From Candidatus Zhuqueibacterota bacterium (GTDB lineage Bacteria > BS750m-G25): a stretch of DNA of 8,926 nt. Below the pieces are notes generated by a model. The model made no database searches, had not been told where the DNA came from, and saw only the letters and a program-made list of their open reading frames with translations. The translations under genes and the position numbers were made by a program. The stretch is from NCBI GenBank assembly GCA_016783505.1, contig JADHWK010000076.1, forward strand, positions 1 through 8,926, given 5' to 3'. Positions 3-5,361 of this stretch are shown one piece after another. Position 1 is the stretch's first letter, and every line of letters starts with the position of its first letter.

Positions 3-371
3 TCGGCCGCCTCCCGTGCCATGCTGGACCCCTACTGGTTGGGCGGTCCCGAGAAGCACACCAAACGGACCAGCATTCGCTGGGTCTTTCTGATGAGGAA
101 GGATGCCATCTCCCCGCCCATCGTCAAACCGGAGCCGGAGGAAGCGGTCAAATTCTTGGAGGAGGGCCGTTCGCAGACTGAGAGTGGTGGGTATAAAAAC
201 GAGCCCTTTTTCAATCCCCACCTGCTGGTGAAGACGCAGGAAAGGATCGAGCTCCAGAAACGGTTCTTTGGCAAGCTGTTTCAGACAGCGGATTGCTACA
301 TCGTGAATATCGGAGCAGAGAAACCGGAGCAGATTCAAGCCCGGATAAGGGCGATTATTGAGGGGGGATGA
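3..371 (+). CDS. C-terminal end of a large protein, possibly PEP-carboxykinase/HPr-kinase-like (5' truncated)
   Basis: The reading frame is open from the first bases of the window and ends at TGA 369-371, so only the last ~122 residues are present and the true start lies upstream. The fragment is GC-rich like the genes at the other end of the window and unlike the AT-rich genes that follow. It contains a striking segment, D-P-Y-W-L-G-G-P-E-K-H-T-K-R-T-S, and later N-E-P-F-F-N-P-H-L-L and A-D-C-Y-I-V-N. From memory, these resemble the tails of long ATP/GTP-using PEP-carboxykinase or HprK-like proteins found in anaerobes. That resemblance was not tested and should be treated as tentative. The stop codon overlaps the ATG of the next small ORF (ATGA 368-371). 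The last ~30 bases of this gene are repeated at 1246-1272, so the gene end is also the left boundary of the inserted island. Confidence 0.75.
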   Translation, partial: SAASRAMLDPYWLGGPEKHTKRTSIRWVFLMRKDAISPPIVKPEPEEAVKFLEEGRSQTESGGYKNEPFFNPHLLVKTQERIELQKRFFGKLFQTADCYIVNIGAEKPEQIQARIRAIIEGG

Positions 372-421
372 AGGGGTACACTGATGGGGAATATTATATG
401 AAATATTTCTTGAATAACAAA
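340..421 (+). repeat. Direct repeat copy A (3' gene end plus start of small ORF)
   Basis: Eighty-two bases match 1246-1326. The first 21 bases are identical, starting CCCGGATAAGGGCGATTATT. A one-base length difference follows in the G-run, and then 46 of 54 bases match in register. Copy A spans the last codons of the truncated upstream gene and the first 18 codons of the small ORF at 368. With copy B it brackets the MntA/HepT pair. Confidence 0.85.
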
Positions 422-1245: not shown

Positions 1246-1326
1246 CCCGGATAAGGGCGATTATTGGGGAGGATGAAGGTGTACGCTGATGGGGAATATT
1301 ATATGAAGTACTTTGTGAATAATAAG
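1246..1326 (+). repeat. Direct repeat copy B
   Basis: This matches 340-421 with a period of 905-906 bases. The upstream part repeats the 3' end of the truncated first gene, but here it is not joined to any gene body. It is therefore a displaced copy, and copy A looks like the original context. The second half carries the first 18 codons of the small ORF at 1273. The similarity stops near 1326. Confidence 0.85.
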
Positions 1327-1356
1327 TTATACGCCACGCTTAGGAGACTACAATGA
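1273..1356 (+). CDS. 27-codon small ORF / leader before the winged-helix gene
   Basis: The ORF runs from ATG 1273 to TGA 1354-1356. Its stop overlaps the ATG of the 207-aa gene at 1353 (ATGA), the same geometry as the 368-535 ORF has with mntA. The peptide starts M-K-V-Y-A-D-G-E-Y-Y-M-K-Y-F-V-N-N-K and then leaves the similarity and ends L-Y-A-T-L-R-R-L-Q. GGGGAGG lies directly against the ATG, too close for a good ribosome site, so translation is uncertain. It may be a leader peptide, a truncated copy of the first small ORF, or a non-functional duplication relic. Confidence 0.3.
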   Translation: MKVYADGEYYMKYFVNNKLYATLRRLQ

Positions 1357-1976
1357 AACGACAGTTTGATGAAAACATTTATACCTCAGTATCACTAACT
1401 AAACTGACAATATTTGCAATACATGAGATAGCAAATAATGGTGAAGAATGTGCTTATGAAAGAGTTGTAAAAGAATGTTTTACGCTATTCCCGAGACGAT
1501 TTAGCTTCCAAAGATACCCTGAATGGCCTGATGGAACGAGAGTTAAAATTGAGATATTGCGTTGTCGTGATAAGGGATGGGTTACAGGAAATGAAAAAAG
1601 AGGATTTCAAATTACATTATTAGGTAAAAGAGTAGCTCAAGAAGTGTTGAGAGAGTTGCAAAAGAGCAAGGTTAAGGAACTACGAAGAGGACAGACAAGG
1701 GACCGTGGGGATACAATAATCACTTATTTAAAAGAAAGTGAGCCTTTTGAGAGATTTAAACAAAACAAAAAGGATTTCAAAATCACTGAAGAGGAATTTA
1801 GAAAGTTGTTGGTTGCTACATTTGAGACTCCTCACAGAGTTCTTGAGCAAAATCTTAACTATTGTCTTGATGTATGCAAACAATATAGAGAAGAAGAACT
1901 TTATGCATTTTTAAAAGAATGTGAAAAACAAAAAGCACCCTTATTGAAAAGTCACACTAAAAGCAAGAAACATTAA
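1353..1976 (+). CDS. Winged-helix-like protein paired with a GHKL ATPase, unknown function
   Basis: This 207-aa protein is of no family I can name with certainty. Residues ~13-105 look like a winged helix: a helical start (S-L-T-K-L-T-I-F-A-I-H-E-I), a segment with F-P-R-R-F and Y-P-E-W-P-D-G-T-R-V, a helix resembling a recognition helix (V-K-I-E-I-L-R-C-R-D-K-G-W-V), then a wing and L-G-K-R-V-A. A linker rich in Arg (~105-120) leads to a second helical domain (~120-195) and a basic tail ending K-S-K-K-H. There is no membrane segment or nuclease motif. TAGGAG at 1341-1346 sits six bases before the ATG, which supports this start. It lies 18 bases upstream of the GHKL ATPase gene and is probably its operon partner. 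It could be a DNA-binding regulator of the operon or a DNA-recognition subunit. The choice between these is inference. Confidence 0.85.
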   Translation: MKRQFDENIYTSVSLTKLTIFAIHEIANNGEECAYERVVKECFTLFPRRFSFQRYPEWPDGTRVKIEILRCRDKGWVTGNEKRGFQITLLGKRVAQEVLRELQKSKVKELRRGQTRDRGDTIITYLKESEPFERFKQNKKDFKITEEEFRKLLVATFETPHRVLEQNLNYCLDVCKQYREEELYAFLKECEKQKAPLLKSHTKSKKH

Positions 1977-1983
1977 GTATCGC

Positions 1984-1989
1984 AAGGAG
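1984..1989 (+). promoter_or_regulatory. Shine-Dalgarno that decides the ATPase start
   Basis: AAGGAG sits five bases before ATG 1995. An in-frame GTG at 1989 lies inside this motif and so could not use it, which makes 1995 the likely start. Confidence 0.7.
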
Positions 1990-1994
1990 TGAAG

Positions 1995-3899
1995 ATGGTT
2001 GAAAGAGAATTTGAAGATGAATTAGAAAAAGAGCAAGACCTCCCTACAGATCCAAGAATACAAATACAAATGACTTATGGAACTATTCGTAATCTTGTCG
2101 ATGCGATAGTTGAGCTTGTGACAAATAGCGATGATAGTTATAAACGGCTTGAGGAAAAAGGTATTAAAGTTAAAGGAGAAATCAAGATATATATACGGAG
2201 ATTAAAGTATGGTAAATGCGAAAGACTTGAAGTATTAGATTTTGCAGAGGGGATGGATAAAGAAGATCTCAAAAAAGCCTTGAAGTTTGCAGCGGAAACC
2301 AGTGGATTTGAAAAAGGGAAAAGTGTTAGGGGGTTATTTGGAAGAGGGCTAAAAGAAGCGATAATGGCCTTAGGAATAGGAGAAATCTATACTATAAAGG
2401 ATGATAAACTATCTAAAGCTATTTTGTGGCAAGGGACTAAGGGAGGAAGATATAGACCACCAAAGGGGTCGCATATTCCAAGTAAAGAAGAAAGGGAAGA
2501 AATAGGTATTATTGAAGGGAATGGAACATTAGTAAGAATAAGTGTGACAAACGAAAAGATGAGTTGCCCAGATTATAAAACTTTAGTGCCACGGATTACC
2601 AACCATTATGCTCTACGAGATATCAATTCTTCACCCAAGAGAAAGGTTATCTTGAATTTTGAAACTCCTGAAAAGAGAGGATTGATGTATACAACGCCAA
2701 TCTCGTATGAAGCTCCCAAGGGAAAAGTCGTATTTGATGAGTCCATAAAGCTGTCTATTCGGGGAGATACGATTGAGATAAAAATATATAAAAGTGATGA
2801 GAAGTTAGAAAGCCCTCATAATAATCCTTTTGCGAAAGCGGGATTACTGATTAAAACTGCCAATGCTATTCTTGATAATGAACTTTTTAAATATACATAT
2901 GAAGAAGCAGGGTGTTTCTTCTTCGGAGAAGTAATATGGGAAGGTTTGGCTGAAAGATTAAGAAAAGGACAGTCGCTACTTGACCTTAATAGAGTAGGCG
3001 TTGAATGGAAACAAGAGGTTTGTCAGGTTTTGCGAGATGAGATTGAAAGGATTTTAGAGCCATTTATAGAAAAAAAGAGAAAGCAACTTGAAGTAAAACC
3101 AGCTGCTCCACCTCCCGAAAAGACCAGAAAGATGTTAAACAAATTATGTTCCTTGTTAAACCGATTTGCAAAAGAGGTATTAAGCGAATTGCCTCCTGAC
3201 ATAGAACCAGGTGAAAAGATAGAGGAATTAACTATTAAACCCTCATACGCAAATATTGAAATTGATAAAGAGAGACCCTTTTCTGTTTATGCGCCATTAG
3301 ACATTCTTGACCTTTCATCTGCACACTACGAAGTAAAAGTTGAGTCAGATAATCTCCATATTCAAATTCTTGACCCGGATATAGAACTTCAACCTGATCA
3401 TAAATATCCAGACCGTTATTATCGTGGTAAGTTTAGAGTCATAGGCAGAATAGATAAAGAGGAGGCAACGATTACCTGTAAATTAGGCGAGCATACGGCG
3501 ACTGCCATAGTGAGAGTCGCTCCATTGGGAAAAATAGGAAAGAGAAAGAAGCTGACTGGTCCAAGGGGTGGGTTTTTCCGTAAGATTGAGGCAGATTCAA
3601 ATAAAGACCCTTCGCATCGGGTCCGTTATGACAAAGGAGTAATCCGGGTCTTTATTAAGTTTCCTGTAGTTGCAAAGTATTTAGACGAGAGTTTAAGTCC
3701 CGAAACCCCCGAAGCCAAGGCAGTATTAGCAGAATTAGTAGGTGAGGCATTTTGTAGATTTGTAGCAAGAGAAGGCATTGACAGAGGCAAATATATTGTG
3801 CTTACCAGTGAGATTGATGCTTTTGCCACTGCTATAAACGAGTTGCAGAAGAACTTTTTGCATCTGATCCACGAAGCTATTCTAAAATATAAATTATAA
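1995..3899 (+). CDS. Multidomain GHKL (Hsp90/MORC-like Bergerat-fold) ATPase, candidate defence protein
   Basis: The 634-aa protein has a complete N-terminal Bergerat ATP-binding fold. The N box is E40-L-V-T-N44-S-D-D47, the G1 box D82-F-A-E-G86-M, the G2 box G113-L-F-G-R-G118-L-K-E, and a late G-T-L-V-R strand lies near 177. Residues ~190-365 look like the second, transducer-type domain of such ATPases, with A-G-L-L-I-K and F-F-F-G-E-V followed by a long basic helix. A Pro-rich hinge (P-A-A-P-P-P, ~369-374) precedes a helical stretch, a probable Ig-like beta-sandwich (~412-510) and a C-terminal helical domain (~525-634). There is no histidine-kinase H box, MutL endonuclease motif or membrane segment. 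The role is probably ATP-driven dimerisation or clamping on a target with the winged-helix partner. Sequence alone supports the ATPase, while the defence function is inferred. The gene lies 14 bases before the radical SAM gene. Confidence 0.88.
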   Translation: MVEREFEDELEKEQDLPTDPRIQIQMTYGTIRNLVDAIVELVTNSDDSYKRLEEKGIKVKGEIKIYIRRLKYGKCERLEVLDFAEGMDKEDLKKALKFAAETSGFEKGKSVRGLFGRGLKEAIMALGIGEIYTIKDDKLSKAILWQGTKGGRYRPPKGSHIPSKEEREEIGIIEGNGTLVRISVTNEKMSCPDYKTLVPRITNHYALRDINSSPKRKVILNFETPEKRGLMYTTPISYEAPKGKVVFDESIKLSIRGDTIEIKIYKSDEKLESPHNNPFAKAGLLIKTANAILDNELFKYTYEEAGCFFFGEVIWEGLAERLRKGQSLLDLNRVGVEWKQEVCQVLRDEIERILEPFIEKKRKQLEVKPAAPPPEKTRKMLNKLCSLLNRFAKEVLSELPPDIEPGEKIEELTIKPSYANIEIDKERPFSVYAPLDILDLSSAHYEVKVESDNLHIQILDPDIELQPDHKYPDRYYRGKFRVIGRIDKEEATITCKLGEHTATAIVRVAPLGKIGKRKKLTGPRGGFFRKIEADSNKDPSHRVRYDKGVIRVFIKFPVVAKYLDESLSPETPEAKAVLAELVGEAFCRFVAREGIDRGKYIVLTSEIDAFATAINELQKNFLHLIHEAILKYKL

Positions 3900-3913
3900 T
3901 GTAGAGTAATTTA

Positions 3914-5089
3914 ATGAAAAACATTCTTCTTGTCGAACCGGCATATAAAAATCCATATCCGCCATTAGGTTTGATGAAAATTTCAACTTGGCACAAGAGG
4001 AAAGGAAATAATGTACAACTTATTAAGGATACACCACATAGTCCAAGTTTAGACCTTTTTGAGGAAAATGAAATATGCTATAAAAAACTCAAAAACCATT
4101 ATGATATCATATATATTACCAGTTTATTCACATATCAAGCTCAATTCGTAATTGAAACAATTAGATACTATATAGATAAGTTCCCTAAAGCTCGAACTAG
4201 AGTAGGTGGAATTATGGCAACTCTCATTCCAGAGTATATTAAAGAAAAAACTGGGATAGAAACACATGTGGGACTACTACGAGGCGCTGAGAATTGCCCT
4301 CCAGATTATTCTTGGTATCCTAATTTAAATTATTCCATCAGCTTTACTACTCGGGGCTGCCCAAGGAATTGTCCTTTTTGTGCTGTTGGGAAACATGAAC
4401 CAATATTTAAAGTAAAAGAAAATTGGCCAGAAGATATTGATATTACTAAGAGAAAAATAATTTTTTGGGATAACAACTGGCTTGCATCACCTAACTTTGA
4501 AAAAGACGTTAAAAGACTAATGAAATTTCGGAAAATAGGAATAACCCAAGTTGATTTTAATCAAGGATTAGATTGCAGATTATTTGATGAAGATAAGATA
4601 AAACTACTGAGTCAAATAAAAATCAAACCACTAAGACTTGCATTTGATAATTGCTCAGAAGATGGGTATATACAGAAAGCCATACAATTGTCTCAAAAAT
4701 ATGGATTTAAAGATATAAGTGTTTATGTCTTGTATAATTCTGAAGATAAAAATGATACACCAGAATATTTCTATTATAGGATTAATGAAATAAATAAATT
4801 GGGAGCGTTGACATATCCTATGCGTTATCGGGCACTTTATAATGCAAATGGACAATATATATCTGATAAATGGGATAAAAAATTGTTAAGGGCTTTGAAA
4901 TTGTCTCTCATGTTTTATTATACGAAGGGGATGATTACAAAAAGTCGTGATGCTTTTAAGAAAATATATGGTAATAATGGCAATGAGTTTAAGCACAAAT
5001 TATACGAGATATATGAAAAAGATAAGCGAATAAATTCGAGATTGAGTCGGAGTAATTCCAGAATTAAAAGTGATTTTGTAGTTCCTTAA
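3914..5089 (+). CDS. Radical SAM protein with cobalamin-binding-like N-terminal domain
   Basis: The 391-aa protein carries the radical SAM iron-sulfur motif C149-x3-C153-x2-C156 within T-T-R-G-C-P-R-N-C-P-F-C, so it should reductively cleave S-adenosylmethionine. The N-terminus (I-L-L-V-E-P-A-Y, then P-P-L-G-L) resembles the Rossmann-like B12-binding domain of this superfamily. I see no D-x-H-x-x-G cobalamin motif, so B12 binding is doubtful. The TIM-barrel region follows (K-I-I-F-W-D-N-N-W-L, then D-F-N-Q-G-L-D-C-R, then L-R-L-A-F-D), and a characteristic Y-P-M-R-Y-R-A-L sits near 301. The C-terminal ~70 residues are basic and Ser/Asn-rich. It is not viperin-like. The substrate is unknown. 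It starts 14 bases after the ATPase stop with only a weak TAGAG (3902-3906) as ribosome site, and it is the most AT-rich gene here. Membership in one operon with the ATPase is likely but not proven. Confidence 0.88.
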   Translation: MKNILLVEPAYKNPYPPLGLMKISTWHKRKGNNVQLIKDTPHSPSLDLFEENEICYKKLKNHYDIIYITSLFTYQAQFVIETIRYYIDKFPKARTRVGGIMATLIPEYIKEKTGIETHVGLLRGAENCPPDYSWYPNLNYSISFTTRGCPRNCPFCAVGKHEPIFKVKENWPEDIDITKRKIIFWDNNWLASPNFEKDVKRLMKFRKIGITQVDFNQGLDCRLFDEDKIKLLSQIKIKPLRLAFDNCSEDGYIQKAIQLSQKYGFKDISVYVLYNSEDKNDTPEYFYYRINEINKLGALTYPMRYRALYNANGQYISDKWDKKLLRALKLSLMFYYTKGMITKSRDAFKKIYGNNGNEFKHKLYEIYEKDKRINSRLSRSNSRIKSDFVVP

Positions 5090-5145: not shown

Positions 5146-5203
5146 GTTCCGTCCCTGCCTGCGGCAGGCAGGCAAATCCTGCTTACGGAGGAACTTCTTT
5201 TTT
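5146..5203 (+). terminator. Probable terminator of the three-gene operon
   Basis: GTTCC (5146-5150) can pair with GGAAC (5190-5194), enclosing the strong inner hairpin at 5154-5172, and is followed directly by TTCTTTTTT (5195-5203). It lies 57 bases after the radical SAM stop. The outer stem is short and interrupted, so efficiency is uncertain. Confidence 0.45.
5154..5172. repeat. Perfect 19-nt palindrome, REP-like element
   Basis: CCTGCCTGCGGCAGGCAGG has nine-base arms that match perfectly around a single central G. Palindromes of this CCTGCCTGC type are, as I recall, dispersed in intergenic regions of several bacterial lineages. Only one copy is in the window, so dispersion cannot be shown here. 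It marks the GC-rich transition out of the AT-rich island. Confidence 0.6.
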
Positions 5204-5274: not shown

Positions 5275-5361
5275 TTCTTAAGGGGAAAGCAGAGGCAGGA
5301 TAGCGATATTGATATTTTAAAAGAAAAAACAAAAGATGATTTTCTAAATTGTGTGGCTTAG
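5275..5361 (+). pseudogene. Remnant of an MntA-like nucleotidyltransferase gene
   Basis: This reading frame gives F-L-R-G-K-Q-R-Q-D-S-D-I-D-I-L-K-E-K-T and ends at TAG 5359-5361. The segment R-G-x4-D-S-D-I-D matches the core of MNT nucleotidyltransferases (compare R-N-D-Q-K-E-D-S-D-I-D at residues 33-43 of the intact gene at 532). At DNA level GATAGCGATATTGA is identical to that gene. The upstream G-S motif, the start and the C-terminal half are missing. The fragment abuts the FmdB gene and probably records an earlier toxin-antitoxin insertion that decayed. It is short enough that chance similarity cannot be excluded. Confidence 0.5.

Follow-up and report, generated by a model that had tools for sequence, protein, structure and literature searches.

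The locus described here raises the question of whether three adjacent genes, encoding a winged-helix protein, a GHKL ATPase and a radical SAM enzyme, belong to one system, and of what such a system would do. It lies on a complete contig of 8,926 bases (the window, by which we mean this whole stretch of DNA) of a 2.5-Mb draft genome (MAG) that is 60% complete. The products of genes 1, 2 and 3 are called WH, GHKL1 and rSAM, and GHKL2 designates the ATPase of another family that is encoded beside relatives of rSAM.

Organization of the locus

The genes of WH (207 aa, 1353..1976), GHKL1 (634 aa, 1995..3899) and rSAM (391 aa, 3914..5089) are all present, intact and collinear on the forward (+) strand. 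The GHKL1 reading frame opens at GTG 1989, but its start is likely ATG 1995, upstream of which a Shine-Dalgarno sequence, AAGGAG, occupies positions 1984-1989; an AGGAG likewise precedes the ATG of WH. With ATG 1995 taken as the start, the intergenic gaps are 18 bases between WH and GHKL1 and 14 bases between GHKL1 and rSAM. The GC content of the three genes (WH 34%, GHKL1 38%, rSAM 31%) contrasts with the 52-56% of the flanking genes, and together with the two preceding genes they make up an AT-rich stretch of 4.7 kb set between GC-rich genes, those downstream encoding a Zn-ribbon protein, an FAD-linked oxidase and a citrate synthase-like protein. Reading frames, composition and gaps thus agree with the preliminary description of this DNA, which had reported three AT-rich genes on one strand, with gaps of 18 and 14 bases, in GC-rich surroundings. 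A palindromic GC-rich repeat (CCTGCCTGCGGCAGGCAGG), possibly a small repeat element, lies at about 5150-5175, in the interval between rSAM and the Zn-ribbon gene.

The two genes preceding WH encode an MNT antitoxin (532-819, + strand; Pfam NTP_transf_2, 1e-16) and a HEPN RNase toxin (816-1169, + strand; Pfam HepT-like, 1.7e-32), which score 47.5 and 51.3 bits against the NCBIfam MntA and HepT equivalogs, below the cut-off of 60 that would place them in type VII. Repeat comparison revealed that the pair is flanked by an imperfect direct repeat of about 80 bp on the + strand (left copy 340..420, right copy 1246..1325, 89% identical), which includes the end of the gene upstream of MNT/HEPN and has only these two copies in the genome; the right copy ends 28 bases before the start of WH. 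Since it is bracketed by this repeat, MNT/HEPN probably arrived separately. The HEPN/MNT pair noticed beside the trio in the preliminary description is therefore confirmed as to its families, by Pfam, and looks like a separate insertion; its inclusion in one unit with the trio was rejected on account of its own flanking repeat and of its absence from other WH-GHKL1 loci. A counterpoint is provided by L186, where MNT-HEPN stands directly before an rSAM gene. Downstream of rSAM, a sequence at 5299-5346 (QDSDIDILKEKTKDDFLNCVA) reads as what is left of a second gene for an MNT nucleotidyltransferase, suggesting repeated toxin-antitoxin insertions at the locus.

WH, GHKL1 and rSAM gave zero matches to the models of PADLOC-DB 2.0.0 at E values up to 1, in keeping with the earlier view that the trio lies outside the named defence systems. 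Inspection of the reading frames and Pfam searches found no methylase and no nuclease gene on the contig, so that it does not qualify as a restriction-modification (R-M) system, unlike part of the loci of WH-GHKL1 and rSAM relatives, which do have methylase or nuclease genes.

Folds of the three proteins

One of the three folds was recognized by profile and two by confident models. Single-protein structure searches found no close relative of solved structure for WH, GHKL1 or rSAM, and single-sequence pattern scans gave nothing useful. WH matched no Pfam family. Its AlphaFold2 (AF2) model (pLDDT 90.8, 33-34 aligned relatives) consists of three helices, a β-hairpin and a C-terminal helical tail, and superposes on the DNA-binding domain of DtxR, over the first 88 columns, at about 2 Å; WH is thus, as modelled, a winged-helix protein.

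GHKL1 matches Pfam HATPase_c_3 at 2.7e-9, above the gathering threshold. The boxes E42..N46.DD49, D84.A.G88 and G106...G110...G115..G118.G120 are invariant or nearly so among 31 relatives, and GHKL1 is by these motifs a member of the GHKL ATPase superfamily with intact Bergerat-fold N, G1 and G2 boxes. When its profile was compared with solved structures, human MORC3 came out best (2.7e-4), and endoplasmin and MutL lower. The MORC-specific S5 motif GhXhhpXXRhl is not found in GHKL1: the window protein reads GLLIKTANAIL, without the Arg at the key position, and its relatives conserve AGxLIKxxxAILD where MORC has its S5 motif. Because this Arg motif is missing, we consider GHKL1 to be MORC-like and not a strict MORC. 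No Pfam domain was found in its C-terminal half; in the paraMORC1-5 families, as described in PMC2292703, a GHKL domain and S5 go together with a C-terminal module particular to each family, be it RE-fold, TIR, HxH or ExxxH.

Iyer, Abhiman and Aravind (2008) placed the MORC/paraMORC GHKL proteins in R-M operons (PMC2292703). GHKL1 shares with these prokaryotic proteins the N-terminal GHKL domain with all the ATP-binding motifs, the C-terminal extension, the sporadic spread in bacteria and archaea and the DNA methylase or restriction neighbours, and differs from MORC by the missing Arg of the S5 motif; moreover, the constant winged-helix partner and rSAM are features of the present loci of which PMC2292703 makes no mention for MORC/paraMORC. 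The distribution of GHKL1 is patchy (7/290 genomes), and on the grounds of this patchiness and of the AT-rich insert a housekeeping pathway was rejected. The idea of a plasmid- or phage-borne GHKL1 was also discarded, with zero matches in plasmids, phages and viral contigs.

rSAM is a member of PHROG 9298, 'radical SAM domain protein' (7e-59), while its Pfam matches, B12-binding (5.6e-6) and Radical_SAM (1e-5), both fall below gathering. Its CxxxCxxC motif is intact at residues 149-156, with C149, C153 and C156 invariant in the family alignment. The AF2 model (pLDDT 88.7) comprises an N-terminal B12-type Rossmann domain and a radical SAM barrel, and matches AprD4, MgmA, TsrM, CysS and MiaB with Z scores of 19-22 over 308-350 residues. 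The invariant cysteines and the fold matches at Z about 20 establish that rSAM belongs to the radical SAM superfamily. The two-domain fold is common to rSAM, AprD4, MgmA, TsrM, OxsB and MiaB (Z 15-22, >300 residues) at sequence identities of 9-17%. The DxHxxG motif is absent, and the Rossmann domain is nevertheless present in the model; several cobalamin-dependent radical SAM enzymes likewise lack DxHxxG, so that the 'degenerate cobalamin domain' of the preliminary description does not follow from that absence. AprD4, the top structural match, is known not to require cobalamin. The alignment displays no conserved N-terminal cysteines and Pfam no TRAM domain, which sets rSAM apart from the methylthiotransferases MiaB and RimO.

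A conserved WH-GHKL1 pair

A search of 84,980 species genomes with the conserved boxes yielded 131 GHKL1 relatives, the best 80 of which were examined. Among these 80, a WH relative adjoins GHKL1 in 36 other loci from more than 20 bacterial and archaeal phyla, the hosts including Chloroflexi, Desantisbacteria, WOR-3, Aminicenantes, Spirochaetes, Bathyarchaeota and Nitrososphaerota. The gaps mostly range from -47 to +41 bases and WH is upstream except in L033 and L038; in two additional loci, L026 and L027, WH is present as well but had been left unannotated by the ORF caller. The recurrence in 36 other loci makes the adjacency more than a chance event, and WH and GHKL1 form a conserved two-gene cassette.

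The 87 genes adjacent to the WH-GHKL1 pairs include N6_N4_Mtase (5), N6_Mtase (3), Mrr_N (2), PIN (3) and Fic (2) families, none of which reaches 2 among 80 distal control genes, and the PADLOC methylase models agree with the methylase enrichment beside WH-GHKL1. This is the context given for the MORC/paraMORC ATPases in R-M systems (PMC2292703). In L024, an 825-aa DNA methylase gene lies 20 bases downstream of the pair, in the slot that rSAM occupies in the window. Most pairs, for their part, stand in housekeeping surroundings devoid of an R-M gene, such as the ATP synthase genes around L018/L019 and the trp genes around L020. The association of GHKL ATPases and winged-helix partners with biological conflict, mentioned in the preliminary description, is borne out by the 36 recurring pairs and the enrichment in R-M- and toxin-type neighbours.

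Two further observations concern individual loci. In L026 (911-4753), pieces of two DNA methylase genes flank the pair, and both genes are interrupted close to the GSGTT motif. In Chloroflexi, a conserved small ORF of 70-90 aa (...EYTENDYYEWLKDNFKSFFNH...) directly follows GHKL1 (L018:3083-3304, L019:11894-12106, L021:11938-12180, L022:3120-3380) and is possibly a third gene there.

The rSAM family and its partners

Relatives of rSAM are encoded directly beside GHKL2, on the same strand, in 18 of 52 loci from genomes, plasmids and viral contigs. GHKL2 is an HSP90-like protein of about 500-520 aa with a HATPase_c_3 domain, alignable with GHKL1 over the ATPase domain only (127 columns); the two are thus different families. 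A GHKL2 profile gave four strong matches in an unbiased sample of 280 genomes, and all four adjoin an rSAM gene. Seven other sampled genomes contain a strong rSAM match (E up to 1e-50), with GHKL2 adjacent in four, HerA-NurA close by in four and either or both in six of the seven; in the seventh (L119), rSAM stands by a gene judged by eye to encode an SMC-like ATPase. The frequency of the adjacency in the 52 loci and its constancy for the four strong GHKL2 matches of the sample indicate that the GHKL-rSAM linkage is real as a theme. The test set in the preliminary description, whether the ATPase and radical SAM genes are neighbours elsewhere, thus comes out positive for rSAM relatives and a GHKL, but this GHKL is GHKL2 and not of the GHKL1 family.

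Some of the GHKL2 loci contain, whole or in part, a cluster with the order ParB-like, 139-aa protein, SNF2 helicase, ParB-like, DGQHR protein (Pfam DndB, PADLOC DpdB), rSAM and GHKL2, hosted by Rhizobium plasmids, by Novosphingobium pNL1 and by several contigs. The ParB-like, HerA and NurA labels derive from profiles built from the loci, from public annotation and from reading, Pfam having named none of them. The window trio and the pNL1/Rhizobium cluster have in common that a member of one rSAM family adjoins a GHKL ATPase; in the cluster, however, this ATPase belongs to the GHKL2 family, rSAM is longer (about 540 aa) and WH is absent. A literature search found no description of this cluster, which is a candidate for a conflict system in its own right, nor of a radical SAM protein linked with GHKL, HerA-NurA, ParB or DGQHR. 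The Novosphingobium HEPN-ParB protein Saro_3948 figures among the conflict proteins of PMC3710099 and is probably the product of the DGQHR-HEPN gene adjoining the rSAM-GHKL2 cluster. The cluster, from ParB-like to GHKL2, is conserved on conjugative plasmids and 'viral' contigs (L131:2936-11188, L132:6985-11125, L166, L154).

HerA-NurA modules of the defence type often adjoin the rSAM family (L121, L122, L123, L005/L118, L188), with the order NurA, HerA, GHKL2, rSAM in L121 and L122 and NurA, HerA, Eco57I-type methylase, rSAM in L188, whereas the window contig has neither HerA nor NurA. In the rSAM tree, the window copy groups with that of L142 (46% identical, support 100/98), outside the GHKL2 clade. 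Its nearest relative (L180, 61% identical) comes after genes for a ParB-like protein (profile and eye) and a Mrr_cat nuclease (1.3e-14), and the L180 genome also has a WH-GHKL1 pair, on a different contig (L086). In L186 (1374-2754), a type IIG-like methylase remnant is followed in tight order by MNT, HEPN and a frameshifted rSAM gene, 46% identical to that of the window. A search of 400 genomes from the phylum to which an Anaerolineales genome belongs found no window-type rSAM. The contexts of L180, L188 and L186, added to those of the cluster, indicate that the rSAM family recurs in DNA-directed conflict loci with interchangeable partners.

Joint function or independent cassettes

The trio was presented in the preliminary description as a candidate undescribed system, and neither a PADLOC model nor a description in the papers searched matches it. 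The exact WH-GHKL1-rSAM arrangement, though, was seen once, on this contig of 8.9 kb from a MAG of 60% completeness, and a conserved three-gene system is rejected, since the rSAM family was found near GHKL1 in none of the other loci, about 80 in number, of the best 80 of 131 relatives. We must therefore weigh the possibility of two independent cassettes, in which WH-GHKL1 would be self-sufficient and rSAM would have been inserted after it at the same hotspot, the two having no joint function. WH-GHKL1 stands alone in most loci, every other GHKL1 locus examined lacks rSAM, the region gathers insertions (MNT/HEPN between its repeats and the second MNT remnant), and the GC content of rSAM differs from that of GHKL1. 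On the other side, GHKL1 and rSAM share a strand and are separated by 14 bases, and the number of rSAM adjacencies expected from random gene order for 37 pairs is about 0.0007, a post hoc figure that island clustering would raise; furthermore, the rSAM family recurrently adjoins GHKL ATPases. Independent cassettes are thus a possibility to be reckoned with, though well short of probable.

At the genome level, strong rSAM matches (E 1e-50) occur in 5/45 genomes with GHKL1 against 7/279 (p=0.016, uncorrected for lineage), a modest co-occurrence that loses significance at E 1e-20. A joint function is favoured by the collinearity of the genes, by the gap of just 14 bases and by the independent GHKL-rSAM adjacency in the GHKL2 family: these speak for a common task of WH, GHKL1 and rSAM, whereas the single instance, the differing GC contents and the insertion-collecting region disfavour it. 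On this balance, we consider the chances of a joint function to be somewhat better than even.

A proposed model and its alternatives

The model we tentatively favour, at a little under even chances, is that of a modular, restriction-like conflict system, probably directed against invaders, in which the three products would work together for defence and rSAM would modify nucleic acid. WH would bind DNA and either hand it to GHKL1 or recruit GHKL1. The ATPase would then use ATP to clamp and remodel DNA, or complexes of DNA with protein, as MORC and MutL do. rSAM, which stands in the slot of a DNA methylase in some sister cassettes, would modify DNA or nucleotides, and this modification would serve as a self-mark or damage foreign DNA. 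A nucleic-acid chemistry is plausible by analogy, since the fold relatives of rSAM include the tRNA-base modifier MiaB and the deoxynucleotide-modifying OxsB. A broader and rather doubtful extension would place GHKL and the rSAM family at the centre of a class of DNA-modification defence not described before, in which a radical enzyme, and not a methylase, writes or attacks the DNA mark, the GHKL families (MORC-like with WH here, HSP90-like elsewhere) and the nuclease modules (HerA-NurA, Mrr, Eco57I-type) being interchangeable. The GHKL-rSAM theme may well merit a separate name, its kin being the DNA conflict loci of the MORC/paraMORC type.

Two other activities can be envisaged for rSAM. It might be a MiaB-like tRNA or rRNA modifier that repairs RNA or shields it, for instance from the HEPN RNase encoded next door, with the ATPase a mere bystander; MiaB is indeed one of the closest matches in structure (Z 19), and HEPN/MNT adjoins the trio and is found immediately upstream of rSAM in L186. 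We hold this to be unlikely, as the three N-terminal cysteines of the methylthiotransferases are not conserved and those of CxxxCxxC alone are invariant, as MNT/HEPN looks separately inserted, and as the neighbours of the rSAM family are DNA-directed. Comparably improbable is a viperin-like activity, in which rSAM would produce an antiviral small molecule or a modified nucleotide once triggered by the ATPase as sensor; the preliminary description had suggested the general logic of an ATPase sensor with an enzyme that makes or modifies a molecule. This reading finds some comfort in the structural match with OxsB (Z 17.7), a B12-type radical SAM enzyme acting on deoxyadenosine nucleotides, but the viperins match over the barrel only, with Z under 10, PADLOC gives no match, and the recurrent partners are DNA-processing and not nucleotide-signalling proteins. 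Lastly, we consider it very improbable that WH and GHKL1 together form a small mobile or selfish element: the pair does interrupt a DNA methylase gene in L023 (9059-12933), where it is accompanied by a target duplication of 13 bp (CATATAGATTGTT) and an end repeat of 16 bp, but about 26 other loci lack comparable repeats, save for a 25-bp palindromic repeat at L044, so that a single mobile element behind all the pairs is rejected, and the unit contains neither transposase nor recombinase.

If the link between rSAM and the ATPase holds, as our model of a restriction-like conflict system supposes, radical chemistry would join the tool kit of DNA-directed conflict systems in prokaryotes, and the rSAM family would point to a possible unknown modification of DNA or nucleotides. 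The WH-GHKL1 pair is found widely and combines a minimal MORC-like ATPase with a DNA-binding partner of its own; it offers a simple model for the action of MORC-type ATPases.

A last observation concerns the phage members of PHROG 9298, the family to which the window rSAM belongs. The phage copies are short and are found near DNA methylase, PAPS reductase or ParB-like genes, with GHKL absent; those of L144, L145, L149, L115 and L117 adjoin ParB-domain and DNA methylase genes. This context hints at a role in phage DNA modification or counter-defence.
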